Shown: positions 226 through 45,500 of the stretch, in pieces
Numbering within the stretch: the stretch's first letter is position 1
Layout: each line of letters starts with the position of its first letter
IMG/VR virus record: IMGVR_UViG_3300046809_000906
Location: 1-56,310 of that record
Direction: 5' to 3' (one strand)
Length of the DNA stretch: 56,310 nucleotides
Source: a virus
Position numbers and translations under genes: made by a program
Notes under the pieces: model-generated
Seen by the model: only the letters and a program-made list of their open reading frames with translations
Databases searched by the model: none
Told to the model about the DNA's origin: nothing

Positions 226-1920
226 ATGGCCTCAACCACCGCACCCGCACCTCCGACACGCCTGAAGACCAGGAAGCCCAACGGCCGTATCGGCTGGCCC
301 CTGGTCGTCGTCGCCGGGGCCGAGAAGACCGGCAAGTCCCACATGTGTGCGGAGTTCGCCAACTCGGACCTGATCGGCCGGCTCATCTGGATCCCCATCG
401 GCGAGAGCGACGTCGACAGCTTCGGCCAGATCGCCGACTTCGACATCGAGGACGAGCAGGACGGCACCTACCGAGGCCTCCTCAACACAGTCCGCAAGGC
501 CGTCGACGAACCCCGCGCCGACCCCAACAAGCCCAATGCCATCGTCCTCGACTCCGGCACCATCCTGTGGGAACTCCTCCAGGACGAGGCCGACTTGATC
601 GCCCGCAGCCGAGCAGCCGAGAAGGCCGCGAAGTACAACAGGACCGGCCCCAGCGCCGATGACGACGTCGTCATCGGACACAGCCTCTGGAACCGGGCCA
701 AGGACCGGTGGCGCCATGTCATCAACGCCCTCCGCAGGCACGACGGCCCGGTCATCATCTGCTGCCGCCTCGACGAGGTCACCGAGTTCGACGCCCAGGG
801 CAACCCGACCCGCAACCGGACGTGGAAGGTGAAGTCCGAGCGCAGCCTCCCGTACGACGCGACCGTGGTCCTGCAACTCCGGTCCTACCGCCGCCCCACC
901 CTCACCGCGGTCCGCTCCCTGGTCATGCAGCTCGCGCCGGACGAGGAACGTATCCGCCCCGGCCTGACGCTCGACGGCCTCATGCGCGAACTCGGCATGG
1001 AGCAGAACATCAGCGCAGCGCCCGCCCCGTTCATCGCCCCGCAGCCGGAGGCTGGCCTGGACGAGTTCGAGCGGGAAGCCGAGCTGCGGGTGGCCGCCAA
1101 CGCGGCAGCCGCTGAGATGCGCCGTCACGCGGCAGAGGGCACGCTGCCCACCCCGCAGGACGTGACCGCGAACATCACCAGGGCGCTCCGGGACGAGAAC
1201 GATCCGATTGCCGCCCTCCTGATGGTTCGCACGGCCTACACCAAGGCGGTTCTCCAGCGCGTCACCATCGCGACCAAGCAGTGGTCCGAGATCGATGCCG
1301 ACACGGCAATCACTCGTCTGCGGGCCGACCTGAACCGTACGGCGAACGCCAACCACGGCGGCACACCCATCAGCCCGTCTCAGCGGAAAGACGGCGAGGG
1401 CACGCCGGACTCCTCGCCCCCGGGCCAACCGGAGGGACCCGACCAGCAGGTTGGAAATGAGCAGCACCGCGAGCGGAACCCTGACGTCTCTCAGCCGGAC
1501 GCCGACAGCGTAGGCACGTCGCCGCCGACCGTCCTGGTCGAGAACGAGGCGCCTGCACCGGCGAGTCGGGCCAGAAGGGCGACGGCCGCCGCGCCACGGG
1601 CGAAGAGCAGGCAGGAGGTGCAGGCCGAACGTGTACGCGCAGCGGTCGACAAGGAAGCCGACTACCAGGCCCGCGTGCTGTTCGTCGGACTGCATGAGCA
1701 CCTTGCCGACGTCCTCCCAGCGAGCGGAGCCGTCGAGGACATCAACACCTACGACCTCACCGAGTTCGTGAAGAGCGCGCGCCCCAGCGTGCTGGAGGCC
1801 CTCGTGAACGCGGGAGAGGCCGCCACCATCAACGCCTACGCGCAGGTTCCGGACGGACCCTGCATGACCATCGACGACGTCTTCGCCAACTGCCAGATGC
1901 TCAAGGGCAGCCCTTCCTAG
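226..1920 (+). CDS. Phage P-loop ATPase (AAA_24/Sak4-like)
   Basis: This 564-residue protein has a Walker A motif, GAEKTGKS, near residue 31 and a Walker B-like AIVLDS near residue 105, followed by a RecA-like core to about residue 250. That arrangement matches phage AAA_24 proteins, including Sak4-type recombinases that work in DNA replication or recombination; the exact role is inferred. The middle and C-terminal part (about 270-564) is helical, with a low-complexity acidic/proline stretch at about 380-450, so the protein is longer than typical Sak4 (about 250-300 residues). The start is supported by GGGAAGG four nt before ATG. It is the only rightward gene on the left side and converges on the leftward structural operon across a repeat-rich gap. 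Confidence 0.7.
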   Translation: MASTTAPAPPTRLKTRKPNGRIGWPLVVVAGAEKTGKSHMCAEFANSDLIGRLIWIPIGESDVDSFGQIADFDIEDEQDGTYRGLLNTVRKAVDEPRADPNKPNAIVLDSGTILWELLQDEADLIARSRAAEKAAKYNRTGPSADDDVVIGHSLWNRAKDRWRHVINALRRHDGPVIICCRLDEVTEFDAQGNPTRNRTWKVKSERSLPYDATVVLQLRSYRRPTLTAVRSLVMQLAPDEERIRPGLTLDGLMRELGMEQNISAAPAPFIAPQPEAGLDEFEREAELRVAANAAAAEMRRHAAEGTLPTPQDVTANITRALRDENDPIAALLMVRTAYTKAVLQRVTIATKQWSEIDADTAITRLRADLNRTANANHGGTPISPSQRKDGEGTPDSSPPGQPEGPDQQVGNEQHRERNPDVSQPDADSVGTSPPTVLVENEAPAPASRARRATAAAPRAKSRQEVQAERVRAAVDKEADYQARVLFVGLHEHLADVLPASGAVEDINTYDLTEFVKSARPSVLEALVNAGEAATINAYAQVPDGPCMTIDDVFANCQMLKGSPS

Positions 1921-2009
1921 TGACGTGACGGGTGACGTGGCGCGCGGTCCGTGCCCCCAGAAGGCCCCGCCGCGCGCACGCCAGTCCCCCCTTGCGTCAC
2001 GTCACGTCA
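1921..2009. repeat. Inverted TGACG/CGTCA iteron-like array
   Basis: Three TGACG units (1921-1925, 1926-1930, 1933-1937) begin directly after the ATPase stop codon. Three tandem CGTCA units (1995-1999, 2000-2004, 2005-2009) follow in opposite orientation. The outer ten bases, TGACGTGACG and CGTCACGTCA, are perfectly complementary. This could form a long-range stem or serve as paired binding sites. Confidence 0.6.
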
Positions 2010-2657
2010 TCCGCACACTCCGGCGGGCGCTCGACGGTGACACCCTTGCGAGCGAACGCGTGCACGCGCCCACTACGCCAGTCACGCACAGCGACACAGG
2101 AGCGTGCACCGCACACCTGGACCACGCCGCCGTGCACGCTCCCGTGCACGGCGGCGCACGCGTAGCATCCTCCGCCCGCAGTTCGCCGCACGCCGAGCAC
2201 GCACGCTCGAACGTCGTCGTCCGCACGGCACGCTGATCACCGTGCACGCCCGCACGGTCGACTTCCGCACGCTCGCACGCAATCCCGCACGCACACCGTT
2301 CTGTGCCCACGCCTGCACGACCCCACCGCCCCGCCCCGCGTGCACACACCCGCACACACCCCGTGAACTGCGAAGACGCCAGCGTGCACGGTCAAGCGCG
2401 GGTATCAGGGGCAGCGTGCACGGTGCTGTTGGCCCGTCACGACGGCACCTCCCGCGGGTCGGGTACGGCACAGCGACGCCGTGCGCCTCGCTCGTCGGCG
2501 CGCACACCTCGTAGATCCCTGCACCCCACGGCCCGTGCGCACGGCGCACCCGCTCGCACGATGCACGCGGTCGGCCGACGCGTGCGGGCAGCAGAAAGGG
2601 CACGCCCCGGAGGACGCACCCCTTGATCTTCGACGCCGTGCGTGCGGCTACAGCCGG
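1921..2657. other. Repeat-rich noncoding gap with CGTGCAC array
   Basis: This 737-bp gap lies between convergent genes and has no convincing coding frame on either strand. It contains eight copies of CGTGCAC, with GTGCAC beginning at 2060, 2104, 2132, 2144, 2242, 2340, 2384 and 2416; six of them complete the 8-bp palindrome CGTGCACG. Many further GCACG pentamers occur in between. Its left end holds an inverted array of TGACG repeats. Such density is typical of a protein-binding region such as a replication origin, packaging site or operator cluster. Which of these applies is not known, and no A/T-rich unwinding element is visible. Confidence 0.6.
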
Positions 2658-3185
2658 TTATCGCTTCGGAGTTGCTCCACCGTCCGTCGTACGAGCCTGC
2701 GGCTTCTTCTTCGCTGCCCGGTCCGCCTGCTTCTCCTCGCGTACGAGCTCCAGGTATTCCTCCGGGTAGAGCTTGGCGAGTCGGTCGGCCGCGCGCCGGC
2801 GAGGGCTCCGTCGAGTTGGCATCCGCCCGCGGCGTGCGGGATAGGCGTCCATGACGATCTGCAGGAGCACCTGCTCGGTCTCCATGCGCGCACGGAACTC
2901 GGCGAGCCTCTTCTCGTGTGCGGTCCTCGACTCCCCGTCGACAGGGAGGAGGTACTGCTCGGCTCCGCGGTGCAGGTCCTTGGCCGCCTTCATGGAGCGG
3001 CGGGAGAGTTCGTCGGACCTGAACGCGAGACCGGTGACGGTTCGGGACACCTTGCGGTCATCGGCGGGCAGGTCCTGGACGAGTGCGGCGAACTCGCGCG
3101 CGAAGTCCTCGTCAGTGAGCTGGTCAAGGAAGTCGATCTCGTCGTCGACTTCTTCGCGGCTCGGCCCGTTATCCGATGCCGGCAT
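2658..3185 (-). CDS. Hypothetical charged helical protein
   Basis: I do not recognise this 175-residue protein. It is highly charged. The N-terminal half is acidic (EEVDDEIDFLDQLTDEDF near residue 11) and the C-terminal third is Arg/Lys-rich and ends in a disordered tail, with PEEYLELVREEKQADR near residue 146. An upstream ATG at 3263 is also in frame, but the ATG at 3185 has a strong GGAGGA seven nt upstream and is preferred. It is the last leftward gene before the repeat-rich gap. A 274-bp gap (3186-3459) separates it from the holin-like gene; nothing clear is seen there apart from G/C-rich short inverted repeats. Confidence 0.65.
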   Translation of the reverse strand: MPASDNGPSREEVDDEIDFLDQLTDEDFAREFAALVQDLPADDRKVSRTVTGLAFRSDELSRRSMKAAKDLHRGAEQYLLPVDGESRTAHEKRLAEFRARMETEQVLLQIVMDAYPARRGRMPTRRSPRRRAADRLAKLYPEEYLELVREEKQADRAAKKKPQARTTDGGATPKR

Positions 3186-3459
3186 GAATGCGTCCTCCGT
3201 AACGTGCGGCTGTGGCTCCTGGCGGGGAGCAAGCGGTGGCCGCCTGGCGACCGAACCCACCACGTGCCGGATCGTCGGGCCTGCGGGCCCTTCCCGGCCC
3301 CGGGCGCAGTGCGCGCGGTTCGCGCGAGCAGCAGCCAGTCATCGGGCCACACTGACAAGGAGCCAATCAACCCTCGTGACTGCCGCCCTACTGCGGTGGG
3401 CTCGGCGGCCAGACGGCCACCTTGGGCGGATCATACCGGCCGTGACCAACGGCCCCTGC

Positions 3460-8468: not shown

Positions 8469-9683
8469 TCAGTAGTGGAAACTGTCGGAGCGTTTCAGGG
8501 TGAGTGTGATGAACCCATCGGCGGAGATCTCGTCGGAGATGATGCGGTGCCACACATCGACGTCGCCGATCCACGGCAAATGCAACTGCACCCGGATGTC
8601 GTCGCCGAGAGACCAGGACCCGAACCGGGCGTTGGGGTGATCGACGATCTGGATCGCGGGGATCTGTAGCGCGGCGGTTCGGCCGGCCAGTTCCTGCTGC
8701 CCCCGCTTGCGGAGCGCCGTGGCGGAGGACAAGGTCTTGTCCGTCACAGTCGCCACCCGGCGCAGCCGACTTGACGCCCAGGCGGCAGTGTCGGCCACCT
8801 GAGCGCGCTTCATCTTCTGACCCTCGCCCCGGCCCAGGACAATGACCTCGTTGGCGTACTCGTCGCCCATGCCCTCGGGTTTGGCGAGAGCGACGATGTT
8901 CTCCCCCTGCGCGAACCGGAGGTCTGCGCGTTTACGGCCGATGCGGGGAGTGCCCAACCTCAGCCGGTGGACGATGGTGTTGCTCGTCGAGTCCTTCCAA
9001 GCGTGCGTCTCGATCCAGTCGAACAGGTACTGATTGACCAGGGTGTCCAGGGTGTCGCCGCAGTCCGGGTTGTCCCACCAAGCGAGCTCCCAAGGGTCCT
9101 CGCCGTCGGAGGTCCCCAGCAGCTCCCCCTTGTCGTGGGAGTCAAGGACCAGGCCGATGTCTCCGTGAGGCTTGGCCTGGACGTGCGCCCAGATTTTGCG
9201 GAAGGCGTCGTAGACGTCGATGCGGGGCCCGCCGTACGACTTGGGTGCCGCGGGCACCTTCACCTTGGGATTCGAGCCGTCGATGTACCCGTCGTGATTT
9301 TTGTCTTTGCCTGCATACGGGTCTTTTGGTGTGATCTTCTTGCCCGAGATGATGTAGCTCTCGAACGGGATGCCGTGCGGGTAAGTGCTGAAACCCTCGC
9401 AGGAGATCGTGGCCTGTGCTCCGTCGTAGGCGGTCTTGGTGACAAGGCCGCCCCACCGGATGGAGCCGTCCACCTCCAGGTACATTTTCGTACCCCACTC
9501 CTGCAAGATCGGGGCGCCGTTGGCTCCGATCATCCGCGCGTACTCCGGCTCGATGGTCCCGGCCATGGCCCCCGGCCCGGACAAGTCCCGCTTCGGGTTG
9601 GAGGACAACGTGAACGGCACCTGCCAGTCCAACACGTCCTCGGTGAGCGCGTCTTGGGCGATGAACCGCCACCCGGCCGGCAC
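8469..9683 (-). CDS. Minor tail / tail-hub protein (Tal-like)
   Basis: This 404-residue protein follows the distal tail genes. It has the features of the siphovirus tail-hub family (gp27/Tal N-terminal type): a beta-rich start, an internal DTLDTLVNQYLF helix, a region with ANEVIVLGRGEG, and a C-terminal beta domain ending in ITLTLKRSDSFHY. A loop near residues 124-133 reads DKNHDGYIDG, matching the D-x-N-x-D-G-x-x-D pattern of EF-hand or TSP3 calcium sites. The protein probably links the tail tube to the fibre. Its start lies three nt after the stop of the preceding gene. Confidence 0.75.
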   Translation of the reverse strand: MPAGWRFIAQDALTEDVLDWQVPFTLSSNPKRDLSGPGAMAGTIEPEYARMIGANGAPILQEWGTKMYLEVDGSIRWGGLVTKTAYDGAQATISCEGFSTYPHGIPFESYIISGKKITPKDPYAGKDKNHDGYIDGSNPKVKVPAAPKSYGGPRIDVYDAFRKIWAHVQAKPHGDIGLVLDSHDKGELLGTSDGEDPWELAWWDNPDCGDTLDTLVNQYLFDWIETHAWKDSTSNTIVHRLRLGTPRIGRKRADLRFAQGENIVALAKPEGMGDEYANEVIVLGRGEGQKMKRAQVADTAAWASSRLRRVATVTDKTLSSATALRKRGQQELAGRTAALQIPAIQIVDHPNARFGSWSLGDDIRVQLHLPWIGDVDVWHRIISDEISADGFITLTLKRSDSFHY

Positions 9684-16756: not shown

Positions 16757-17707
16757 TCAGCTCTTCTTGCTCTTCTTGGGGGCGGGCAGTTGGCTGACTT
16801 CTTCAAGGACATCGACGAACGGCCTGATCTGCTCCAGCAGACGCCGGGCCTCACCAGGGCTCCGCATCAGCAACTGCCGGGCCTTGGCCGGGTCCAGTGT
16901 CTTCGCCACCTCGTCCCACCGCTCGACCTGCGTCTTGCGTTCCTGCTCGGATTCGGTGAGGTCGTCGAGTGCTTCAGCCTCTGGGTCGTTCCAGCCCAGC
17001 TTGTCGATGGTCTCCTGTAGACCGGCGGGCGTCTTGCTCTCCGACTGGGACCAGACGGTGCGTACGGCTTCCTCGCCCACAGCCTCGTCGTCCTTGCCAT
17101 GCGAGCGCAGTACCGCGAGGAGCAGGGGCACCTGGCGGGTGCTGAGCTTGTCGGGGCCCTCTGCCCCCAGGGGGGCGAGCGCCTGCATGACCGGGTACTC
17201 GTTGAGGATGCGGTAGCCGTGGGCACGGGAAATGCCCCAGACCTCCCGCAAGTAGTCCTTGAACCTGATGAAGGGCTGGCCCGTTGCCTCCGAGATCCGC
17301 TCCAGATACAGGTGGTCGAGGTTGATCTCGTATAGCGGCCCGCTTGCCCGCTCAACGAACCGCTGGTCGGCTGCGGCGACCGTGTCCCTGTAGAGCTCCC
17401 GCTCCTGGTGAACGATCCGCTCGTAGTACGCCAGCCGGTCACTCTTGGGGGCGTCCGGGGACGGCTTCGGCCCGTAGTTGGGTTCCGCTACCACGACATC
17501 GGTGTCCTGCGGTGCAACGTCCTGTTCAGGCTCGCGGGCCGAAGGGACGACCTCCGTGGTCGGCACGCCGGCATCGGTCGGAGCGGAGGGCGGCAGCTTG
17601 AGGAATTCGAAGGCGTCCATCCCGGAGCCTTCGCCGTTGAACGCGGCCTCCAAGGTCCCCTTCTCGTCAGCCTCGGTCTCCGGGGCGTCGGTGTTCGCGG
17701 CGGTCAT
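16757..17707 (-). CDS. parB: ParB-like centromere-binding protein
   Basis: This 316-residue protein is encoded directly downstream of parA with an ATGA overlap, so it is very likely its partition partner. It does not show the usual ParB N-terminal GERR motif. An acidic, disordered N-terminus (1-85) leads into a helical core, with a helix-turn-helix candidate at about residues 150-178 (FKDYLREVWGISRAHGYRIL), then a long helical C-terminus ending PAPKKSKKS. The five identical palindromes flanking parAB are its probable binding sites. The ParB assignment rests mainly on context; a plasmid-type regulator of another fold remains possible. Confidence 0.7.
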   Translation of the reverse strand: MTAANTDAPETEADEKGTLEAAFNGEGSGMDAFEFLKLPPSAPTDAGVPTTEVVPSAREPEQDVAPQDTDVVVAEPNYGPKPSPDAPKSDRLAYYERIVHQERELYRDTVAAADQRFVERASGPLYEINLDHLYLERISEATGQPFIRFKDYLREVWGISRAHGYRILNEYPVMQALAPLGAEGPDKLSTRQVPLLLAVLRSHGKDDEAVGEEAVRTVWSQSESKTPAGLQETIDKLGWNDPEAEALDDLTESEQERKTQVERWDEVAKTLDPAKARQLLMRSPGEARRLLEQIRPFVDVLEEVSQLPAPKKSKKS

Positions 17708-18600
17708 GCGACCATCTCCAATCGGCTCCGCATCCGTAGTAGGAGCGCGGTCGTCAGGTTGTCGTGGGCGTCAGCGAGGTTGCTGATGGTCTCCTCGAAC
17801 CTCTTGTCCTCGGGACGCTTGAGGGCTTCCAGCTCCCACACAGATTTCCCCAGTTGGCGGGCAAGTTTCGCCGTCTTGGACGAGGCATGGATGGTCTCGC
17901 CGAAGACGTGAGTGCTGCTACCCAGGAGCTTGCGAGCCTCCATCACGACTTCCTTGTGTATGCCGGACGACCCGTTCGGGGATCCGAAGTGGACGACTCC
18001 CAGCAGCTCCAGAAGCTGGTTGATCTGCTTCGCCGCGTTGAAGGCATCGGAGATGTCGCTGAGAGCGTCCTCCAGACTGCAGACGTCCATCTTCACTGGC
18101 GCCACGAGCCACCGGGACGCGCACAGGCACAGCATCAGGACATTGGGGTTCTCGGGAGGCGCGTCGATCCAGACGACGCCGTACTGCGACAGCAGCGGCT
18201 GAAGGCAGGTGGCGAATCGGAGGAGCGCTGAGAAGGGGCCCTCGCGCTGCGCGATCTCCATGAACAGGGAGTTGATTTGGCGGAACTCCTTGCCGCCGAG
18301 GACAACATCCAAGTTGGTGCGCACGTTCTTGACCGGGACGAGGGGGGTGCCGTTCTTAAGCGCCTCGTAGAACGCCGTGCCCTTGTCGCCTTCGCCGATG
18401 CCGAACTCGCGGCGAAGGTTTCCCTGGCCGTTGGCGTCGATGGCCAAGGTGGGAATCCCCTTGGCGGCGGTTTTCGTGGCGTTGTTGCCGGTCAGGGTGG
18501 TCTTGCCGACTCCACCCTTGCCGCTTGCGAAGCAAGTTACATGGCTGAATTTGGCGTAGTCGATGCCGAGAGCTTCGGCCGACATGGGCATCATGGTCAC
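17704..18600 (-). CDS. parA: ParA-family partition ATPase
   Basis: This 298-residue protein has the deviant Walker A motif KGGVGKTT (about residues 28-35), the VVWIDAPPE Walker B region (about residue 142) and an otherwise complete MinD/ParA fold. Such ATPases move plasmid or low-copy replicon copies apart along the nucleoid. The GTG at 18600 with GAAAGGG eight nt upstream is used; ATGs a few codons inside are alternatives. It is followed by parB with overlap, and three palindromes lie in its upstream region, so autoregulation by ParB is plausible. It sits inside the late structural operon, between the major tail protein and the tail chaperone. Confidence 0.9.
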   Translation of the reverse strand: MTMMPMSAEALGIDYAKFSHVTCFASGKGGVGKTTLTGNNATKTAAKGIPTLAIDANGQGNLRREFGIGEGDKGTAFYEALKNGTPLVPVKNVRTNLDVVLGGKEFRQINSLFMEIAQREGPFSALLRFATCLQPLLSQYGVVWIDAPPENPNVLMLCLCASRWLVAPVKMDVCSLEDALSDISDAFNAAKQINQLLELLGVVHFGSPNGSSGIHKEVVMEARKLLGSSTHVFGETIHASSKTAKLARQLGKSVWELEALKRPEDKRFEETISNLADAHDNLTTALLLRMRSRLEMVA

Positions 18601-18703: not shown

Positions 18704-18723
18704 GTGTCTCTCATGAGAGACAC
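18704..18723. repeat. parS-like palindrome, copy 3
   Basis: Perfect GTGTCTCTCATGAGAGACAC, 104 bp upstream of the parA start and with no extended symmetry. It is close enough to the parA promoter region to act as an operator. Confidence 0.8.
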
Positions 18724-18747: not shown

Positions 18748-18767
18748 GTGTCTCTCATGAGAGACAC
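18748..18767. repeat. parS-like palindrome, copy 4
   Basis: Same 20-bp core with six further symmetric bases on each side (AGGCCC/GGGCCT), giving a 32-bp perfect palindrome at 18742-18773. No T-run follows on either strand. Confidence 0.8.
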
Positions 18768-18792: not shown

Positions 18793-18812
18793 GTGTCTCT
18801 CATGAGAGACAC
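18793..18812. repeat. parS-like palindrome, copy 5
   Basis: Same 20-bp core, extended to 24 bp by TC/GA. It lies 9 bp beyond the stop codon of the major tail protein gene. Confidence 0.8.
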
Positions 18813-30589: not shown

Positions 30590-33500
30590 CTATCGGGTGG
30601 CGAGCAGTCCGAGGAGGAACGCCCGAAGGTCGTCGTCCTCGTACCAGTCGCCGTTGAACAGGGACAGCAGGGCCTGCGGCAGGACCACGTCCGCTCGGTC
30701 CGACTCCGCGTTGCTGAACAGTCGCGCGAACAGCTCGTCGACGCTGGAGCGGCGAGCACCGACACGGCCCGTGTGGGTGCGGGCGTACCGGTATACCTCC
30801 TGGGCTGCCAGAAGGTCCGGCTGCGCCTGCTGAAGGTGCACCAAGAGTGCGTACGCGGCCGTACCGAGGCCTCCGTCACCAAGGTCGGCGACGGACACCG
30901 TCCGGCTATGCGGGTCGTAGCCACCAACCGCTGCGTCCCGCGCGTGCACGAGACGCCGGTCCGTCGGGGCCAGCCAGTCCCGAGGGACGAACCGCTGCAC
31001 GCCGTTCAGCGCTCGGGCAGCGTCACCGTCGCTGCCCGGGGACATGATCAGCGCCGACGAACCGCTGGGGCCCATCTCCCGCACCGACGCCAACGCATCG
31101 GCGACGACGTCGGGCAACGCAGTCGTGTACGCGGCGCGCATCCGGTCTGCTTCCACACGGGCATCGGCAGCCTCGGCACGCGCAGCCGCCAACTCCAGCG
31201 TGTAGTCCGGGTTCACGCTGTGCCCGACGGGGTGGGCAGCGAGGTTCCGGGCCCGCCGCTCGGTCGTGTCCGCGTACGCGGCCGCCAGACGCAGGTTGGT
31301 GTGGGGGTCGTCGCCGTGATCCGGGAGTACGGCCGCGAGCCGGGCGTTGATCTCCTGGTCCATGTCGACGCCAGCGGCCCGCAGCGCGGCAAGGTGCCGC
31401 ATCGCGGTAGCACCAGGGCCCCGGTCCGCAGCCCGGTCCGGCGCCCAGCGCATGCCGTCTTGTACCGCTGGGAGTTCCCCGGCGGCCAGAGCTCGGCGCG
31501 TCGCGCCCTGGTACCAGCGGGCCCGCCGCGACGTCTGCCCGAAGCGGCCGGGAGCCGGCATGAGCCGCGCCCAGTGCGCGATGCGCTCACCGAGGCCTTC
31601 CCCGTCGCCGGGAGCAGGGAGATCGGCGGCTTGGGCGATGCGGTGCAGTCGCCGTGTCTCCGGCCACGCCTTCACCCGGGCCACCAGGCGCTCACGGAAC
31701 CTGCGGAAGGCCTCCGAGTTCCACGCTTGCCGCGCGGCCCGCAGCAGGGCCTGCACCATGGCGATGATGCGGCGGCCGATCCTCATGAGCAGCGCGAGGA
31801 CCTGCGGCAGAACTCGCTGCCGCGTCGCGGGCGGCAGGTTCCGGACGATCCGTCGGGCGGTCGCCTGCCGGGTCGCCTCCATACGCCCGGTCAGGACACG
31901 GCCCAGCCGCAGCGCGTCCTCGTCGCTCAAGCCGTCGCCGAAGGCCTGCCGGGCGAGCGTCATCAGCGCGTCGTCGACGTGCCGGGCGATGGTCTCCCCG
32001 GTCTCCCCGGTGCCGTCCCGGCGCGCGGCCGGGACGCCGATCTGGTCCGGAATCATTCGCAGCAGGTCCGCGGCACGGTTCGCCGTGTCCTGCGCGCTCT
32101 CGCCGTCGAGCGGCTCCAGGTCGTTGATGGTGCGCAGTACCGCCCGGACCGCGGCCGCGCGGGCGCGTAGCCGTTCGGCCTTGAGTCGCTTGAAGGCCTG
32201 CGACCGCTCCGGGCCGGTGATCCCGGCCGCGTTGAGGGCGTCCACGGCGTCCTGCCGGGCCTGCTGCATGGGAACCAGCAGTGCCTCGGTGGTGACCCGC
32301 TCGGCGACCTGCTGGCGCAACTGATGGATGCTGCCCGCGGGCTCGGTGCCGGCGATGGCCGAGTCGACGACGGCGCGGGCCACCCGGTTGGGGTGCCCGG
32401 CCACGATGTCGTCGGTGGAGGGCGCCGGGTTCGGGTCACGACGCGGGGCGTCCGCGCCCTCCGGGTCGGGCAGTTCGGGAAGCTGCCACAGCGGCTGATC
32501 CCCGGGCAGAGTGCGCGAGTGCGTATCCCCGGCGGCGTCCCGCACCGTCACCTGCCGCACCCCGCCGAGGAGGTCGTCGATCCCGACGACCGTGTACGTG
32601 GAGACGTTGTTCGCGTCGTCCTCGTCGGGCAGGGCGATCGTGTCGCCCACGCCGAGGTCGTTGACCGTTCCCTGCGCCGAGCGGGCGTTGGTGTCGCTGC
32701 TGGTACGGCCGGCCGCCTCGTCCAGATGCGCAGCGGCGCGGCGGGCCGCGCGCCCTTCCGCAGTGTCCGGGGTCGACGTGGCACGCAACGAGTCGGCCAG
32801 ACCGGTGGCCTGCCCCGAAGTGACGGGCAGGTCCTGCCCGATACGGGTCACGGCCTGCTGCACGTCGGGGTCGTCCGAGGGCGCCGTGCCGTGGTCGGCG
32901 ATGGCGTCCCGCTCCTCCGGGGAGAGCTGCGGGTCCACGGTGTCACCGATGACCGGGTCGACCGCCTGCGGCTCCTCCAACACCCGCAGGTCGACGTCTT
33001 CATCGTCGACGGCGGGGGCTTGGCCGCCCTCGCCGACCAGGCGGGTCACCGGAGCGTCCGCCGTGGTGTCGATGTGGGAGGCCTCCCCAGTACGGGTGTC
33101 GGCGACGTCGAGCTGAACCCGGTCGCCGTCCTCGTCACGGCCGATGACGGCCACGGTGCGGGGGCCGTCAGCGCCGTCGTGGACGATGACGTCACCCTCG
33201 CTGAGGGAGCCGGCCGTGGCCGGTACGACGTCCGCCGTGTTCGTACGGTCCTCGGGTTCCCTGTCGCGGACTTCGCCCACGGTACGCAGGTCCGTGACCG
33301 GCATGGGCTTGATGCCCTCGCGGGTGGCGACCTGCACGCTGTCCCCGTCGACACCCTCGACGGTGCCGAGCATGTTGCCGTCCCGGTCGCTGACCACGTG
33401 GCCGTTGCGGACACGCTGACCCTCCGGTGTCCAGCCGGTGGGCCGGGCGGAGCCTCCGTCAGTGACGGTCACCGACGACGGGGCGAGGCCCGTTTCCTGC

Positions 33501-36500
33501 TTGTCGTCGCCCCAACTCACGGACACCGTAGACGCGTTGGCGCCGGTGACCACGCCCTCCCGGCCGCCGTCGTCCTGGACGAGGCTGCCCGGGAACAGGC
33601 CGCGACCAGAGCGGTCGGTGGCGATGCGGTCGGCGATGTTCCCCGTGAGAACGTCGCCCTCCGCACCGGTGACGAGGGAGCTGTCGGCCCGCTCACGCTC
33701 GTCGCTTACCTCACCCGTGGCACGGGCGGCCGAGGCGTCGAGCGGCGTCCACACCGGGGAACGGTCACCGCTGCTGCCGTCCTTGGTCTCCGAGACGAGC
33801 GTCATGAACATCTCCGTGCTGCGGCCCTTGCGGGACACAGCGCGGCGCTGCGGCGCCTGAATGACGTACCCGGACAGGGTGCGCGACTTCCCGGCGCGGG
33901 TGGTCCCCTCGATACGGACGACGTCGCCGAGCGTAAGGTCGCTGACGCTGACCCACTCCGCGGTACGGCCGCCGATCGGTTCCGGCGCGGGCCGCTCCTC
34001 GGGCACGTCGACGCCCGGAGAAGGCACATCCTCTGCCGAGTTGGGCGCTGCGGGCACAGCGGCCCCAGCATCCCGCCCAACGGCTGGCTCGGATACAGCA
34101 GGCACTGCCACGCCAGCGTCCTGTCCGACGGCTGCCTCAGGCGCTGTCTCACCCGTGCGGGGGCGGCGCATGGCACGAGCCCGGACCGGATCGGCGACCC
34201 AGTGCACTCCGTGGACCAGCCGCTTGACCTTGTTGCCGTCCAGGTCGAACTTGCCGCTCTCGGAGTCGTCTCCACCGCCAATGTCGTAGTCACCCATCAC
34301 GCCGAACGGGAAGTCGAGCCCCTGCCCGACCGAACCGCGACTGAGGTAGGCCGGGTGTTCGTCCGCGGTACCGCGCTCCGACCACTCGGCTGGCCCGCCG
34401 GGGGTGTCCGGATAGGTGAAGACGTGGAAGGAGTCGACCTCGTCACCCGCCTGCAGATCATCGGCGTGGTGGACGGGGATCGTGTATCCGTCCCGCTCGG
34501 ACGTGGCACGCCACTTCGGGTAGTGCTCGTCCAGACGCTGCTCGTCGAGCAGCAGCAGACGCGCCTTGGTGCGATCGTAGAGCCGGTCCTCTTCGTCGAA
34601 CTTGTCCACGAGGGCCTTAGCCACAGCCACGCCCAGGTTCTCGCCGTCCGATCCGATGAACGCGCGGGCCCGCTCGGGCGCGTCAGGGGCATCCCACGGG
34701 AACGGGTTGCCGTCGCGGTCTCGGATGCCCTCCAGGGCCTCGGTGTACGCGATGGCCTGCTCGCGAGTGATGTTGTACGGGTCGAACAGAGAGTTCATCG
34801 ACCCGGGCGCCAGAATGCGCCACTGGAGACCACTCCGGTTGCCGTGCTTGAACTTGCCGATAGCAAGCCGACCGCCGGGGCTCAGCTCCAGCGTCTTGCT
34901 CTTGATGACGTCGTCCAGGCGCTGACGCATGTCCCAGTTGCCACCAGGACCGGGATCGTCGAGCTCGCCGGCGTGCAGGTGGTCCCGGAGCGCGGCGACA
35001 TCACTGAAGCGGGGCTTCGACGCGTCGAACGTGTCGACCTCCGCCTCCGGCTCGGCGTCGGCGTCTGCCGCGTCCGCAGGAAGTGCGGTCTCACCACGGG
35101 CGGCCCGCTGCTGCTCCTCCCAATCCCACCGGTCGAGGCGTTCGGACTGCCGCTTCTGCTCGCGGAACTGGTTGTAGGTGACGCGACCGCCGTTCTGATC
35201 GAACCACTCGATCAGCTCGTCGGACGCGTACCGGCGCCACGCGTCATTGGCGGACAGGAAGCCGCCGTTGAAGACGTCGTCCTCGCTGTACCCCTTGCGC
35301 TTCCCCTCCTTGTTGAGCAGCGAACCGCCACGCATCGCGTTGTCGGCCCGGTTCCGGCGCTCTTCGTGCCACATCTGGTATTCGTCGCGAAGCTGCTGGT
35401 CCTTCGACGGGCGCTTGGGGCGGACGATCTCCGGCGCGACGTCCAACTGGCCGAAGCCCAGGGCCTCGTCCATGGCCTTGTTCTCGGCCTCACGCTCTTC
35501 CTCGGTTACCGGAGGCGTCTGCGACAGCACGTCACGAAGCTGGTCGGCCGGCGGGAACCGGCGGTCCATCTCGGCGGCGTACCGCTCCCAGTCCTCGGCG
35601 TTGAAGGCCTGGTGCGGGAACGATTCCAGTTCGAGGTCCGACAGGATCGACAGATCCTCTGGCAGCGCGGACGGCTCCTCGCGGGCCTCGTCCGCCTCGA
35701 AGGCGTCGCGTTGGGCGCGCATCGCCTCGACCAGGTTCCGGCCCTGCCCGTCACGCCACCCGCGGACAGCAGCCGAGTCGAGATCGCCGTTCCAGGCGAA
35801 CGGCGTGCCGTCGGCCCCGGTCAACTGCTCGTACCGGTTGGCGAGTTCGCGGGCCTCGGGTGCGCTGTACGCGCTCACCGCAGTGTTGCCCGCACCGCCG
35901 AATCCGGCTCCGGTGCGAGCGTGGGCGAAGTACCACAGGGCGGGCTGGCCGTCGGCCAGGGCCTCATGATCGTCAGTCCACGTCACCAGGCCACTGCCCT
36001 CGGACTGCGTCAGCGTCGGGTTGTCGGCGAGGCGCTGCAGGAAGTCCCGGTGCTCCGGGGTATCCATGCCTGCGGGCAGATCGCGGCCCGTTCGGTACGC
36101 GTCCCGCAGCCCACCGAGACCGCTGGAGTCGTCATCGTCCCGGAGATCGCGGTTGTTGCGCTCCGGGATGTGCGGGACAAGCGGGCGGCCCGGACCGCCG
36201 CTGTCAGGCCGGTTGCTGCCACGGTTCCGGCGGTCCCGGCGACGCCGACGACGAGCGCGGTCGTCTGTCCCCTCATCGTCGTCCCCGTCAGGGGTGCCGT
36301 CGTCGTTGCGGTCGTTGTCCGGTTCAGGGGTACCGCTGCCTCCGTCGCCGCTTGTCTCGTCCGGCGCGGCGCCATCAAGGTCCCCACGGTCACGGTCACG
36401 GTCCTCGCGGTCCGAGTCGTCCCGGCCGAACTCCTCCTCCTGGCCCTGTCCTTGGCCGTTGTCGCCGTCGCTATCGTCTCGTTCGCCGGGGCCCGCCGCG

Positions 36501-39500
36501 TCGTCCTGAGGGCCGCTCAGGCTCGGCAGGCCCTGCTCCCGCATTTCGCGGGCGAAGTCGCGCGCCGCCTCCTCGGGCGTGTCGAATCGGCCTTCTCCGG
36601 TCAAGTTGTTCGGGTACGGCCGCCACCAGTAGTACCTGCCTCCCTTGCTCTTGTTCTCCTTCCAGAGAAGAGCTTCGATGAGGCCGTCGACGTAGATGTT
36701 GCGGGGGCCGCCGCTCTTCCTCGGCTTGTCCAGCCAGACCCCGTCTCCGAGGTCGGTGGCCCAGGCGGGCACGGTGACTTCGTCCTCGCCGTCCGGAGCG
36801 CCGGCATCGCTCGTGGTTGTTTCAGACTCGTCGTTCTGCGAGGCCTGACGCTCGTCGTGAGTGGCCACGAGCCCGGCCGTGGCGAGATCCCGGCCGTGCC
36901 ACGTGCGGCGCTGCCCATCATCGGTTTCAGCGTCGTACTCCAGCGTCCTCTCTTTGAAGTCGTTGGTGATCCGGCCGACCTCTACGCCATCGACGCTGAC
37001 ACTCCACTCCGTCTTGGCGCCCTCCTTCGCGACCTCATTGACCTCAGCGCGGGCCACCAGAGCGGCTACCCGGTCGGGGCCGCCGAGTTCATGTGTCTCG
37101 TCGTCGACCGGCACCTCCCAGTTGGTGAAGATGTCGGTGCGCACCCGAGCCCGTGCCCTGTTGCGTACGACCTGCTCCGGCTTCTCGACGAGCACGACCC
37201 ACTCATCGGGCCCAACGGTGTCGTGACCGTGGTTGTTGTCCAGGTTCACGGAGCGGACGGCCCCATCGAGACCGCCACGGTGGAGGTTGATGACGTAACG
37301 CGGCGTGTACATCCCGTCGAAGCCGTCGCTCGTGCCCTGCCGACGATTCACCGTGTGGAAGATGTTCCCCTCGCGGAGTTCGGAGCCCCGAGCCCATCGC
37401 ATGCCTTTGGGCAGCTCCGCTTCACCGATCTTCAGCTCTCCGGTGCCCGTTCGAGCATCAGCGACAGGGGACGTCGGAGCACCGATGCTCTCTCGCCGAC
37501 CGTTTTCCCAGTGCATGCCAGCCCAGTTCGAGCTGTCGTCCTGCGTGGCCCATCCAGCGAACGCGGACCAGTAGGCGGTCCCGTCCGCGACAGCGGCCTT
37601 GAGGGGACGGATGGCTTCAGGGAACTCACCATGGATGCCGTAGGACTTCTGGTCGGAGTTGTCGCCGCCGACCACACCGATGATGAAGGCTTCTGCCTGC
37701 TGTTCAGACAGACCGCGCTCCGCGGCCCCGGCGCGGGCGCGCGCGATCCGCTCGCGTACCGCCTCCCGGACCTGCTGTATCCGCTCCTCAAGCAACTCGT
37801 GGCGCAGCTCCAGAGCCTTCTTCCGCCCGTTCCGGGTGGCGATGTGGTTCACCAGGATGGGGCGCAGGTCGGTGCGCAGCCCCTCACCCATCTCTCGGAC
37901 CGAGGACCGCAGATCCTCGGACAGGTCGGTGAGGAACTGACGCGCCTCCGAGGGCACTTCATCCAGGCCGCGGCGGGTGTTCTCGTCGTACTGCGCCAAG
38001 GGCTCGACGTCGGCCATTGTGGAGATCCAGAACTTGACGTCCCACGGATCGGCTCTGGCGGACCAGCCGTCATCGTTGTGCGCGACCGCCCGGTCGAGGT
38101 ACACGTTGCGCACTCCGGCCGGCTGCGGCTCCGCCCACACGCCCGCCCACTCTCGGATCGGTGTAGCGCGACCGCTCGTGTCACCGGGGAAGCTCAGTAG
38201 AGGCTTGTCGTGCGCGCCGGCGACCACGAGGGCAGCGGCATGCGCCGGGTCCTCGAAGTCCTTCTTGCTGGACCACGGATCACCGACTGGGCCGTGCGCA
38301 TCGTGGTCTGCACGCCACGCCTCATCTCCCTCCGTGTCGTTGCGCAGGACGGAGCCGATTCGCTCGCCACCGAGGTAGACGGCCCGCCGGACCTCATCCC
38401 TGTGGAAGCGGTGCTTGGCGGGGATGACGTGTTCTTCGCCGATCTCCACGGGCTTGCCGTTGTGCTCACCGACATGCTCCCGGGTCTCCCCTTCGGCGTT
38501 GCTGTCGGACGTGCTGACGGGCGCCCCCGGGCTCGGCTGTTCGCCGTTGAGCGCGTCCAGGCCGTCGCCGCTCGGCGACGTCTCCGGACGGGCGTCGCCT
38601 GCGGTCTCGTCCGGTGATGCTGGCGTCCGACGGGCTTCGAAGTCGGCGCGCGCCTGATCGTCGAGGCGCTGCGCGGTGTCGTCCTCGCTCTGCCGCTGGT
38701 CGCGGGTGGCGCGGTGCCTGTCCAGGAAGGTGTCGAGCGCGCTGAGCAGGTCGCGCAGCGGCTCCTCCATCGTGTTCCGCTCGGTATTCAGCAGGGAGCC
38801 CTGCAGAACGGTTGCCTGCTGACGGGCGCTCGCGAGGTATCGCTCTGTGTCGTCGTAGTCGTCGTCCTCCAGCGCGGCGATGGCGTTCATGACGCCACGA
38901 CTGAGTTCGCCGACGGAGTCGGGTATCTCGCGAGGTCCCCACGTCGCTGATGCGGCGGTGCCCAGATGTGTGTTGGCCACGTCCACGGGGGCGAGGCCGT
39001 CGCGCCACTCCTTGTTGTCGGCGAACGGCTTCGGGGCGGCTGGCGTTGCAGGGGCAGCGTCCTCGGTACGAGGCGCGGGGGCCCGCCGCTCGTCGCTGCT
39101 GCTGGTGGTGGTGTTCGCGGTCTCGTCGGGGCCGCCGAGCCGGACCTCGTCCGCGGGCCGGAAGAACAACTCCCGGCCTTGCTCCGTGACGACGCGGACG
39201 CGACCGCGGCCGGTCTTGTTCGGCGGTTCGGCCACGGTGTGGGCGTGGCCATCCGAGCCGGTGAACCGGTCGCCCTGCTCCAACTTGTCCGCGCGGCGGA
39301 GCTCCGCCTCGCGAAGATCGCTGGTGTCACGGCCTTCGAGAGCGGCGATCAGATCCGGCGTGCCGAACCCATCGTCGGGCTGGTCGAACGGGTTGTTCGG
39401 GTCGGCCGCGGTGCTCCGGCGGGCGGGGGCGGCCGGCGCCGAGAACAGGCCGTCGTCTTCGCTGCCGTCGCCCTCCACCTGGTCGCGGGTGAGGTCCGCC

Positions 39501-42500
39501 CAGTTCCCGCCGGGGCCGCTGCGCTGAGGCGTCGGATTGGGCGCAGGCTTCTGTTCCGGGCGCTTCCCGGCAAGGCGGTCGTTCTCCGCCTCCAGCGCGG
39601 TCAGGCGGGTCTTCGCAGCACCGGTGAGCGGCCCGTGGACCATCTCGTGCTCGATGAGCGCCACGATCTCCGCCTGCCGGGCCTCCGGGGTCATAGCCCG
39701 GGGGCTGTCCGTCCCGACGGGCGGCTCCGATGCCTCGTCGTCACCGTCCCCTTGCTGCGGGACGTTCGGGCCGCTCGGCGGCTCCGATGACCCACCGGAA
39801 CCCGCGTTGTCGCCGGTCGGGCGGATCGACTCCAGGTCCTCGTCGACTCGGTCGCGGTCGATCGTCACCGTGCCGGTTCCGCCGGTGTTCGAGGACTCAC
39901 TGCTCTCGTTCGCAGAAGCTGCGCCGGAGCGGGTGCGGGGCGTGCGGGTGGCGCTCTCGGGCCGCAGTTCAGCGAGGTCGCGTTCCACGTCCTCGGGGTC
40001 CAAGGTGACCGTGTCGTTGACCGCGTTGAGGGCGGCGGCCGCGGCCTCCTCGTCGAATTCCTGCTCGCGCCGGTCCTCAATGCCGAGTTCGCTCTTCAAC
40101 TCGGCGACTCGGCTCTGGGCCTTCAGATAGTCCTTGTTCTCCGGGTCTACCTCACGGTTCTTGTAGCCTTTCAGTTTCTCGTTCGCGGTGATCAGGTTCG
40201 ACAGCAGCGCGACACGACGCTCCTTGGACCGCAGGCGCTGCCCATACGGCGAGGTGCCGCCCAAGCCTCGCTTCGCGCGTGCGCGCTCGTCCTGCGTGAT
40301 CTCAAGGCTCTCCTCGGCGTCGGCGATGGCATCGTCGAGGTTGTTCAGGCGGCGCTCCAGAGAGGCGAGGATGCCGCGGCCGGAGGCGTCGTCGAGCTGG
40401 CTGGGCGTGTAGACGCCGCGCGTGTCCGGTTCGGCGGGGTGCTCCCAGTTCGGCCAGTCGAAGCGGACCTTGGCGACGCGGTTGCCGAACAGGTCGTGGC
40501 CGATCTCGACATGGAAGTCGTGGCCACCGAGGCGACCGAGCGGCACCCGGGCGCCGTCCTGCAGACTCATGTCCCGGGCTGCGGCCCGCACTTGCTGGGC
40601 GAGATCGTCGTAGACGTCGGCTCGCTGGTCGAACTCTTCGTCGCCGAGACGGATGCGGAAGTTGTCGCCAGAGACGTCCTCGCGGCGGGCCAGGGCGTCA
40701 CGCCAGGCGGGCAGCACCCCGGAGAGGTCGCTGATGATGCCGTCGGCTGCGGCGACGGTGCGGCGGCGGGTGTCCTGGTCGCGGTGCCAACTGCGGTCCA
40801 GGCGCTGCAACTCGACGACGTCGGCGCCCGCCTGGGCGTAGTCCATGACGGTCATGTCGCCGGTGGCGATGGCTTTCATCTGGCCGAACGACACGGCGAT
40901 GTCGCCGATGTCCTCCATCTCGCGGGCGTCGAAGTCCTTGCGGTCCATCTGCGCGATGAACCCGGCCTTGCGCTCCAGCGTGCCCAGCTTGAAGGCGTCG
41001 AACGTCTCCTCGGTGACGTAGGAGAGGATCCGCACATCGTCCGCGGTGCCGGGGATCCCCGGCATGTTCAGGTTGCCCTGGCGCTCGATGCGACCCTCGC
41101 GCTGCGCCATGTCGGCCGGCCGCCAAGGGAAGTCCATGTGGTGCAGGGCGACCGCACGGGCCTGAATGTTGGTGCCGGTGCCCATTTTTTCCGTGGAGCC
41201 GACGAGCACCGCGATCCGGCCGTTGCGGGCGTCCTCGAACAGCTTGGCCTTGGCCTTGTCCGTCTTCGCCTCGTGGATGAAGCGGATCTTGTCGGCGGGG
41301 ACGCCGGCCTCGACGAGCTCCGCCTTCATGTACGCGTAGCCGTCCCACGCGTTCTTCGCCGTCGACCCGGGCGTGCCCGCGTCCATGAAGACGATCTGCA
41401 CGGAGCCGGGCAGCTTCTGCGGGGTGAGGTCCTCGTCGGAGACCGGATAGATCCGGTCCTTGTTCTCCTCGTAGATTTCGGCGATCTTGTGGACGGCGGC
41501 GTCGATCTTGCCGCCCTCTTCGCCGTGACCGCCGACGAGCCGCATGTCGATCGCGGCGCGCGAGGCCAGGCCGATCGCCTTGAGTACACCGCCCTGCTTG
41601 TGGATCCACGACGCGCTCGGCAGCGCGGTGACGAACGCCTTCTGCTCGGCGGAGATCGGCACCGTGACGATCTCGCCGCGCTTGCCGTCCTCGCCCGCGC
41701 GCACCTTCGGAGTGGGCAGGTTGAGGTCCGCGGCAGTCTGCACGTCGACGGCGAGCCGGTACATGCGCAGCAGCTCGGCCGCGTTGTGGAAGCGGGAGAA
41801 CCGGGCCTTCATCCGGAACCCGGACCCGTCGGGGGCCAGCTCCAGGTTCTGCACGATCTCGCCGAACGTGGCGGCCCAGGAGTCGAAGTCGTCGACGCCG
41901 GCGTCTTCCAGGATGTCCGGGCGCAGGAAGCGCTGCATCACGTACGCCTCGGTCACCGAGTTCGCGATCGGCGTGCCGGTGGCGAGGGTGACGACGCGAC
42001 CGCTCTCGTTCCGCTCACGCAGGTACTCGATCTTCATGTGAAGGTCGGAGGCCCGCGCGGAGCCGGAGATGGCGGCGCCCTCGATGTGAGAGGCGGTGGC
42101 CAGATTCTTGTAGCCGTGCGCCTCATCGACCATCAGGTAGTCGATGCCGGTGTCCTCGAAGTGGACCGCGCCCGAGTCCTTCTTCGACGCCAGCTTCTGC
42201 TTGAGCTTGGCTTCCTTGGCCTTGAGCGTCTCTTCCAGACGCTTGAGGGTGAGGGACTTACCCTCGCGAGCCTTGGCCCGCTTGATCTCGTCCTGGAGCT
42301 TGTCGAGCTCCCGACGCATGTACTTCTCTTGGGCCTCCGCGCGCATGGGGATCCGCTCGAAGGCGCCCTGCGTGAGAATGACGGTGTCCCAGTCGCCGGT
42401 GGCGACCTTGGCGATGAAGCGGCGACGCTTCTTGCCGGTGAGGTCCGCGGAGGACGCCGTGAGCAGCTTGGCGTCGGGGTACAACTCCAGGTACTCGCGC

Positions 42501-45500
42501 CGGAATTGGCCCAGCATGTGGTTCGGGACGACGATGGCCGGCTTGCGGGCCATGCCGGTGCGGCGCAGTTCCTGCGTACCGGCGACCATCGTCGCCGTCT
42601 TGCCAGCACCGACCACGTGCGCGAGCAGCACCGACTTGTCGCTGACGATCCGGCGGATCGCAGCGTTCTGGTGCGGCCGCATCTTCCACTCGGCGGTCGC
42701 GCCGGGCAGAGCCAGCGGGGAGTCGTCGAACTCCCGCATCACCAGGTTGTTGAACGTGTCGTTGTAGACCCGGGCCAGGCGCTTCGAACGCTCGCGGTCC
42801 TCCCACACCCACTCGGAGAACCGCTCGGCCATCGCCTTGGCCTTGGCCTGCGCCTCGCTGGTCGCCTCGTCGTCGGTGACAGTGACCTTCTTGCCACCGG
42901 CCTCGATCGTGCGGGTGACGACGATCGTGCGCTGCTCCAGGAGCGCCTTGGCGATCTCCGGGGCGGACTTGGACTTGGTGCCCCAGTCGGACGTGGCGGC
43001 GATACCGGTGGTGGGCCCCTGGACCTCCCACATGGACGCGCCACCACGCTCGGCACGCACGGCCTTGGTGCCCAGGATGTGTTGGAGGAACGCCGTGACG
43101 TCCGTCTCCGGGATCCACGGGGCGCCCATCTTGACCTTGATCTCGGACGGATCGAGATCACGGGGGATGACGTTCTTCAGCGCGGCGACGTTCGCCCCGA
43201 ACCGCGGGTCGGCGGCGGCGGCCTTTTCGGCGAGTACCAGCTTCTCCCGGACGTTCCCGGACAAGTACTCGCCGCGGGAGACGAGCCGGTTGGTGCCGGG
43301 TTCGTCGAACGCGAGCGGGCCGATCTCCTCGCGCAAGGCCTCCAGGTCGTCGACGCGGCCCAACAGGCGGGCGATCGTCGGTAGATGAAGTTCACCGCCG
43401 TCGAGCTCCTGCGCGAGGGCGATGGCCTCCTCGGGGCTGCTGGCCCGGTCGGCGATCTCGCGGGGCGCGAGGACGCGCTGGGTGAAGATGTCGGCCTTCT
43501 TCGCCGACTTCGCGGTGTCGTCCCACTTGTCGAGGCCGAACACCACGGCGGAGGCCGGGTCGTCCTCGAAGACCTGGAGCGCGGACGGATGCTTCCACGC
43601 GGCGGGAACGTCTTTGAGGCCTTCGGCCTTCGCCCGGTCTTTCGCCTCCTGGGGGCTGAAGAACCGGGTCTGGCCCGGCTTGTCGAGCGGGCCGTGCTGC
43701 TTGACGTACGCGTCGTACGCCTCGTTCAACTCCCGGCGCAGGGCCCGCATGTTGTCGGTCTCGCCGGACTCACGGGTGGCACCTTCGAGCCGGAGCAGGC
43801 GGTTGGTGGTCTCCCGCAGGGCGACGAGCTTGCGAAGCTGCTCCTGCTGAGTCGGGTGGACGTCGAGCGGGATGACCGCGCCGTCCTCGACCTGCGTGAA
43901 CGAGCCGTCCGAGAGGATGTGCACTGCGCCTTCGTGCTTCTCCCCGGCGAGCTCAAGGCGCCGGTCGACGGCGTCGATCTCCGGCACGTACCGCATGCGG
44001 GTGTTGCCCTGCCCGCGGAGTGAACTGCTGTGGACGCGGGCCAGGCCCGCCTTCAGCGCGGGGCCGGCGTTCTTGTCGCCGATCACGGTCAGGTCGTGGT
44101 CGGAGAACTGGCCGCGGCCCGTGGTGAGTTGCCCGAGGATGTTCTGGGGGTTCCGCTGGAAGTAGTCGTTGACCGCGATCTCGTGGCCGTTGACGTTCGT
44201 CTTCGACGACCGCGTCCACGACATGTCTATGTCGTGGGTGTTCTCGTCACCGAAGCGGCGGCGGAACACGAGGACATCGGTGACGACTCCGGTACCGGCC
44301 GCGTCCTGGTGCGCGCCGGCCGGGAGACGAACCGCGCCGACCAGGTCGGCCATGTAGGACATCTGCCGCCGGGCGGTGTCGTCCTCACCGTCCATGGTGT
44401 AGCGGCTGGTGACGACGGCGACGAGGCCGCCGGGGCGGACCTTGTTCAGGCTCTTGAGGATGAACGTGTCGTGGATCGAGTGCTTCAGATCCGGGTTGAC
44501 CTGCTCGTCGTACATCGGGAAACGGCCGAACGGCACGTTGCCGATGGCCAGGTCGAAGTACGAGTTCGGCATACGGATGTCGCCGAACGAGCCGTTGATG
44601 ATCCGGGCGTCCGGGTAGAGGAGCTGCGAGATCGCCGCGGTGGTCGGGTCCAGCTCGATGCCGGTCACCCGCGCGCCCTCGGGGGCGGCACCGATGAAGT
44701 TGCCGGAGCCGGAACCGGGCTCCAACACGTTGCCGCCGCCGAAGCCGAGGTTCCGCACCAGGTCCCACAGGGGCTGTACGAGCTCGGCGTCCGTGTAGTG
44801 GGCGTTGAGCGTGTTCGCCTTGGCGGCGGTCCACTCCTCGTCGTTGAGGAGCTCCCGCACGGCCGCCCGTTCCTCGGCGAACGACTCCCACTTCTTCAGC
44901 GCGCGGGCGTACTTCGCCGGGTCAGGGTTGCCGTCGGCATCCCGGAACGCCCCGTCCGTCGGCTCCGGCTTGTCCGCCAGCACGATCGGCAGCGCGCCCC
45001 AGCCGGACCAGCGGGCCAGGATCTTCTGCTCTGCGGGCGTCGCCGGCCGGTCCTCAGCCTGGATCTGCCGGAGCGTCGTGACCGCCGCGACGTTCGCACG
45101 GGCCTTGGCCTTCTCACCCGAAGGCGCCAGATCCTTCTGGGACTTCGGGCGGAAGGACGGTGCAGCTACAGCCTGCCGTGATCCGGAAGCTCGGCGTTCT
45201 CCATCCCGGGCTCGGCCGGCAGGAAGATGTGCTCGGCCATCACCAGTTCGCGGGCCTGCGCCGCCGCCTGCAGCTTGGCCGCCACCCGGTCCACGAACTT
45301 CTCGCTCGTCTGATCCTTCAGAATCTGCCGCGTCCGGTCCGTGATCTCCTGATCCGCCAGAATCCCGAGCGTCGCGAAGAAGGTCTCCTTCTCCTCGTCC
45401 GTCCCCAGCTCCGCGTACGCCGCTGGCCTGTACGTCTCCCAGTGCTTCCTGGCGATCCGCCCGAGCTTGTTCACTGCCACTGCTGTCGTCTCCCGTGGTG

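Follow-up and report, generated by a model that had tools for sequence, protein, structure and literature searches.

In phage lambda, the replication origin consists of clustered, partly palindromic iterons that lie inside the O gene and are read by the N-terminal DNA-binding domain of O, with the partner protein P acting as helicase loader; initiation of this O/DnaC type need not use DnaA boxes. Covariation between an initiator's DNA-binding domain and its origin repeats has been tested experimentally in the PLE satellites of V. cholerae (PMC8263062), although the PLE RepA/ori system differs from the locus described here in protein family and host, and has three ∼30-bp semi-palindromic iterons as opposed to dozens of short words. 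For extrachromosomal mycobacteriophages, RepA-based and, in most cases, RNA-based origins have been described, and no repeat motifs are reported from the region that was analyzed there (PMC7157519). Like the elements studied here, those mycobacteriophages are prophages of actinobacteria that persist as plasmids, possess parABS and have a central origin near the structural genes (PMC7157519), but the genes here are O-like and DnaC-like and repeats are present. In Streptomyces, pZL12 and pSLE1 are plasmid-phages with ParA/ParB, the latter circular (PMC4487206, PMC7157519); because both were absent among the eight plasmid records carrying the type of ATPase discussed below, they probably belong to another family. 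In the open-access papers searched, nothing relevant was found on the replication of this phage-plasmid family, on phage Gilgamesh or on GGCGCGCC origins.

The DNA analyzed here, a 56,310-nt stretch from an IMG/VR virus record (the window), belongs to a Streptomyces phage-plasmid of ∼130 kb that is a relative of Gilgamesh. Its ATPase is 77–78% identical to those of two relatives (L003 and L004) and plasmid NZ_CP122459 (131.5 kb) and 58–61% identical to those of the circular plasmids NZ_CP070374 and NZ_CP108441 (130–131 kb); identity is 30–37% for numerous further elements from Streptomyces, among them Gilgamesh (129 kb) and circular plasmids 125–130 kb in length. The relatives possess capsid, portal, tail and terminase genes as well as ParA/ParB-like genes, and are thus phage-plasmids. 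We propose that the gap at 1921–2657, which follows the ATPase gene and holds a dense array of short palindromes, is very likely an iteron-type replication origin bound by the element's O-like initiator. In the relatives, an O-like helix-turn-helix (HTH) initiator (PHROG ‘replication initiation’ or ‘O-like’ matches) and a DnaC-like helicase loader (E 1e-17 to 1e-22) are encoded ∼2–4 kb upstream of the array, on the ATPase side, with ParB-like, TerS and SSB genes beyond them; the initiator with its DNA-binding domain lies near the array in L004, CP122459, CP108441, CP070374 and Gilgamesh. The initiator and loader genes are missing from the window because its contig starts 225 bp before the ATPase gene, and we infer the window's initiator from those of L004 and CP122459.

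The gap (1921..2657; 737 bp, 73% GC) is bounded on the left by the gene for this AAA/RecA-like ATPase (226..1920, plus strand; AAA_24, PHROG 1366, weakly Sak4-like), the final gene of a rightward early/replication unit, and on the right by the gene for a conserved protein of the Gilgamesh gp76 family with no function assigned (2658..3263, minus strand), the final gene of a leftward tail unit. An earlier note on this DNA had described eight CGTGCAC copies in about 360 bp of a coding-free gap, at a density far beyond chance, and this description holds: the ORFs inside look like chance GC-rich frames, and eight GTGCAC palindromes, with CGTGCAC on one or both strands, occur within 2060–2421 (at 2060, 2104, 2132, 2144, 2242, 2340, 2384 and 2416, an array of CGTGCAC/CGTGCACG at 2059..2422) against ∼0.14 expected in 362 bp. 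Because the total of 22 copies in the window is close to the mean of 22.4 obtained by shuffling, the anomaly is one of local clustering only. GTGCAC is the most clustered palindromic 6-mer of the window (8 per 362 bp, with 4 for the runner-up), and no second cluster of similar density appeared elsewhere in the window or anywhere in NZ_CP122459, a relative with a complete sequence of 131 kb. The array also includes a perfect 14-bp inverted repeat, CGCCGCCGTGCACG-ctcc-CGTGCACGGCGGCG (2125..2156).

The CGTGCAC palindromes are only one lineage's form of an array that is found across the family and varies within it, and their unit is smaller than the palindrome. The gap has 36 copies of the half-site CGTGC/GCACG, whereas the remainder of the window predicts 2.9, and these copies span the whole gap, exceeding the interval first noticed. 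Pooled over four relatives, GTGCAC within the gap occurs about as often as expected from the pentamers that compose it (27 copies against 27.2), so the basic unit is the half-site; CGTGCACG, read in these terms, is two overlapping half-sites.

Inverted repeats occupy both edges of the gap. On the left, GTGACGTGACG ... CGTCACGTCACGTCA (1920..2009) directly follows the ATPase stop and is kept in relatives; this left-edge repeat (GTGACGTGA/TCACGTCAC) recurs in both NZ_CP122459 (54764–54966) and Gilgamesh (8916–8957) at the gene for an FtsK-like translocase, where it stands at the gene start and again immediately before it, perhaps as a shared operator or terminator. On the right, a conserved AAGGG...CCCTT element (2596..2624) possibly terminates the leftward tail operon; a terminator scan did not call it, its single call being at 2686–2703, outside the gap. 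Edge repeats of this sort, and the position of the array between two convergent transcription units, are what one might expect if a transcription regulator used the array as an operator or for silencing, or if the array formed a bidirectional transcription barrier between the converging operons. We regard such a regulatory role as highly improbable, since a promoter scan of the gap found no promoter-like site, no promoter of a flanking gene faces the gap, and 15–50 sites far exceed what a transcription barrier needs. Nor would regulation or a barrier explain why the word changes along with a protein whose matches point to replication initiation, as described below. The gap was also considered as a known structured RNA, which was rejected, as no Rfam family reached its gathering score (the best, sbcD RNA, was below cutoff with E 0.1).

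The equivalent gap in ∼35 relatives also holds dense short GC-rich palindromes, and nearly all relatives have a counterpart gap of ∼520–880 bp full of them, but different lineages use different words: GGCGCGCC in most cases, otherwise GTGCAC or CGCGCGCG. A DNA-level search among phages with the gap alone gave no match; the gap evolves too fast, so protein anchors were needed. The GTGCAC/CGCACGC word is found in the window, L003, L004 and CP122459, and CGCGCGCG in CP108441, while the CP070374 array mixes CGCGCG and GTGCAC. GCGCGCC/GGCGCGC, the GGCGCGCC type, occurs at 16–54 per 700 bp in most or nearly all distant relatives. One locus (L050), in which the ATPase gene is followed by unrelated sequence, was left out of these counts, and in another (L017) the array itself breaks off into unrelated sequence. 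At a third locus (L043, CP109288, 13672–14410), the array has been rewritten by tandem duplication of CCGCGCGCCGATCC-type units and has no recognizable core. In the complete Gilgamesh and CP122459 genomes, the array is the only strong cluster of its own word.

The GGCGCGCC centers are phased at ∼11 bp across 20 non-redundant arrays, with none of 300 randomizations as strong, as would be expected if proteins bound the DNA along a single face; the GTGCAC copies of the window's type are too few for the same test. All of the common array words alternate purine and pyrimidine, and alternating runs of at least 6 take up 39% of gap bases compared with 9% of the whole window, so the array might instead reflect composition or DNA shape, i.e., low-complexity, Z-DNA-prone DNA with no dedicated binding protein. 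Composition, however, leaves unexplained the fixed 8-bp words with non-alternating ends (GGCGCGCC), as well as the helical phasing, the positioned core and the match to initiator type presented below, and we consider this explanation extremely unlikely.

The arrays share a conserved core, TGAMCTGC, whose position varies little. Its family consensus, YTGACCTGC, was found ∼60% of the way along nearly every array, usually with an A/T triplet next to it (core aligned in 28 loci), and TGACCTG occurs in 23 of 33 gaps, in one orientation, compared with 0.66 expected. In 27 of 29 loci, by hand count, the left array word ends 4–7 bp before the core; the distance from the core to the start of the right array word is 9–14 bp in 22 of 29. 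The window has a variant core, TGAACTG (2364..2370, plus strand), followed by CGAAG, with the next CGTGCACG starting at 2383; its right spacing of 11 bp is typical and its left spacing of 20 bp atypical. Although in many relatives the core coincides in part with the stretch of lowest GC content, A+T there is only 40–56%. The best 25-bp stretch reaches 40% A+T in the window gap and 36–56% in relatives, and we found no strongly AT-rich unwinding element in any of these gaps. DnaA boxes (TTGTCCACA) were likewise absent from every gap at 0–1 mismatches and formed no cluster at 2 mismatches, which does not fit a DnaA-dependent, oriC-type origin. The detrended GC-skew minimum falls at the array in both Gilgamesh and CP122459; because gene direction also switches at the array, it was discarded as evidence for an origin.

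Within each word type, the initiator N-terminal domain (the first ∼130 residues) is 62–71% identical, whereas between the two main word types its similarity is undetectable by BLASTP; the ATPase, DnaC, g82, g83, ParB, TerS, g76 and the initiator C-terminus all keep ∼24–57% identity between word types. Profile-profile alignment of the two initiator types joins the C-termini only (E 5.6e-26). Three natural chimaeras (L028, L048 and L056) combine a GGCGCGCC-type N-terminus with the C-terminus found in the other type, and all three have GGCGCGCC arrays, showing that the C-terminus does not set the word. A third N-terminal type is found in L054, which has no array in its gap and instead carries 3–4 GGGGACT...AGTCC palindromic repeats inside the initiator gene (contig G005:C4, 115493–116611). 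L046 keeps a GGCGCGCC-type initiator and has a second initiator, of the third type, with six GGGGCGACTTGAAGTCACCC-like palindromic repeats inside its gene (contig G001:C12, 21473–23059); its gap array is reduced to ∼100 bp, possibly through assembly collapse. Because the array word tracks the N-terminal type, with the chimaeras and the losses in third-type relatives following suit, the array appears to behave as the initiator's binding site. The match between word and domain, however, largely follows one deep split in the family, together with the third-type replacements, and does not represent many independent swaps.

A PDB sequence search with both initiator profiles gave no match, and the AlphaFold model of the GTGCAC-type initiator was poor (pLDDT 44). 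For the GGCGCGCC-type initiator, the model shows a winged-helix domain, but the best fold match is a weak one, to the DnaD N-terminus (E 0.21). In NZ_CP107934, the initiator (512 aa; L044 7549–9087) has the N-terminal DNA-binding domain twice in tandem.

The same comparisons bear on two other roles that a palindrome array could play. The earlier note had left origin, packaging site and regulator as options, of which the comparative evidence singles out the origin, since the word and its location change with the initiator's DNA-binding domain and not with TerS or the ParB-like protein. As a packaging (pac/cos-like) site for the small terminase, the array would be suitably non-coding and repeat-rich and lies at the end of the structural operon, with terS ∼8 kb from it in Gilgamesh. 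However, TerS is 45–49% identical between word types, loss or replacement of the array follows the initiator type and not TerS, and there is no evidence of genome ends at the array, so that packaging is a most doubtful function for it. A parS-like centromere for plasmid partition deserves similar scrutiny because partition sites are typically palindrome arrays and the family encodes ParA- and ParB-like proteins, the latter near the replication genes. The ParB-like protein is nevertheless 52–57% identical between elements with different array words, and the array is not adjacent to parA. A better partition candidate exists elsewhere in the window: three perfect 18-bp palindromes, TGTCTCTCATGAGAGACA (18705–18722, 18749–18766 and 18794–18811), spaced by 44–45 bp, lie directly upstream of the gene for a ParA-like ATPase (17704..18600, minus strand; Pfam AAA_31, 3e-18; PHROG 164 ParA-like partition protein, 1e-21), and degenerate copies are found upstream of parA in NZ_CP122459. 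We thus consider it very unlikely that the array is a ParB-bound centromere.

The origin reading, on the other hand, agrees with what is found at iteron origins in general, i.e., clustered, repeated sites of initiator size in a non-coding region, an initiator gene nearby (in the relatives), and covariation of the repeats with the initiator domain. In the mechanism we envisage, the CGTGC/GCACG half-sites and their pairs (CGTGCACG) would be iteron-like sites for the initiator's N-terminal HTH domain, and many initiator molecules would bind side by side, filling the phased sites. The DNA would then be distorted or opened near the central core (TGAACTG/TGACCTGC, 2364–2371), and the DnaC-like loader and the host replicative helicase would be recruited and the helicase loaded. 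Initiator binding, strand opening at the core and helicase loading are all predicted from sequence comparison, and such an origin could serve plasmid replication, lytic replication or both.

The origin proposed here resembles that of lambda in its palindromic iterons and in its pairing of a phage initiator with a helicase loader, and the third-type relatives share the in-gene position of the repeats as well: in L046 and L054, the palindromic iterons sit just after the HTH domain, a lambda-like arrangement. In-gene repeats were found only in these third-type relatives and not in the window's family, where, in contrast to lambda, the array lies 2–4 kb downstream of the initiator gene (as seen in relatives), between converging operons. 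Compared with lambda, the array also has far more words, each of them much shorter; its GC content is 73–87%, and a strongly AT-rich unwinding element is not seen. These origins may well represent an undescribed class of phage-plasmid origin that is GC-rich, has ∼15–50 very short, phased palindromes around a universal TGACCTGC core, and lacks DnaA boxes and a classical AT-rich unwinding element; within one family, the word would be exchanged along with the initiator's DNA-binding domain, and in some members the array would be replaced by lambda-like in-gene iterons.

This analysis provides a testable origin and a probable initiator for a ∼130-kb Streptomyces phage-plasmid family of which Gilgamesh is the only isolated phage found. 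The natural exchanges of domain and word supply matched pairs with which to study the evolution of origin specificity and to ask if plasmid incompatibility is set by exchanges of this kind. Should the array indeed open DNA this rich in GC, it would offer a test of origins that work without an AT-rich unwinding element, and a minimal module could serve as a Streptomyces vector.

Two further loci were noted. On the L054 contig (G005:C4, 13221–13403), a core-like TTTGACCTGCGGAAAT lies beside CACGATCG palindromes and small HTH genes; this is a possible alternative origin, with the caveat that this 8-mer occurs by chance ∼12–15 times per genome. In the window, a 5856-codon ORF (17.6 kb; 30590–48160, minus strand) adjoins the portal gene and encodes a putative giant virion-module protein, with counterparts of 18.9 kb in NZ_CP122459 (annotated as DEAD/DEAH helicase family) and 13.9 kb in Gilgamesh (gp48).
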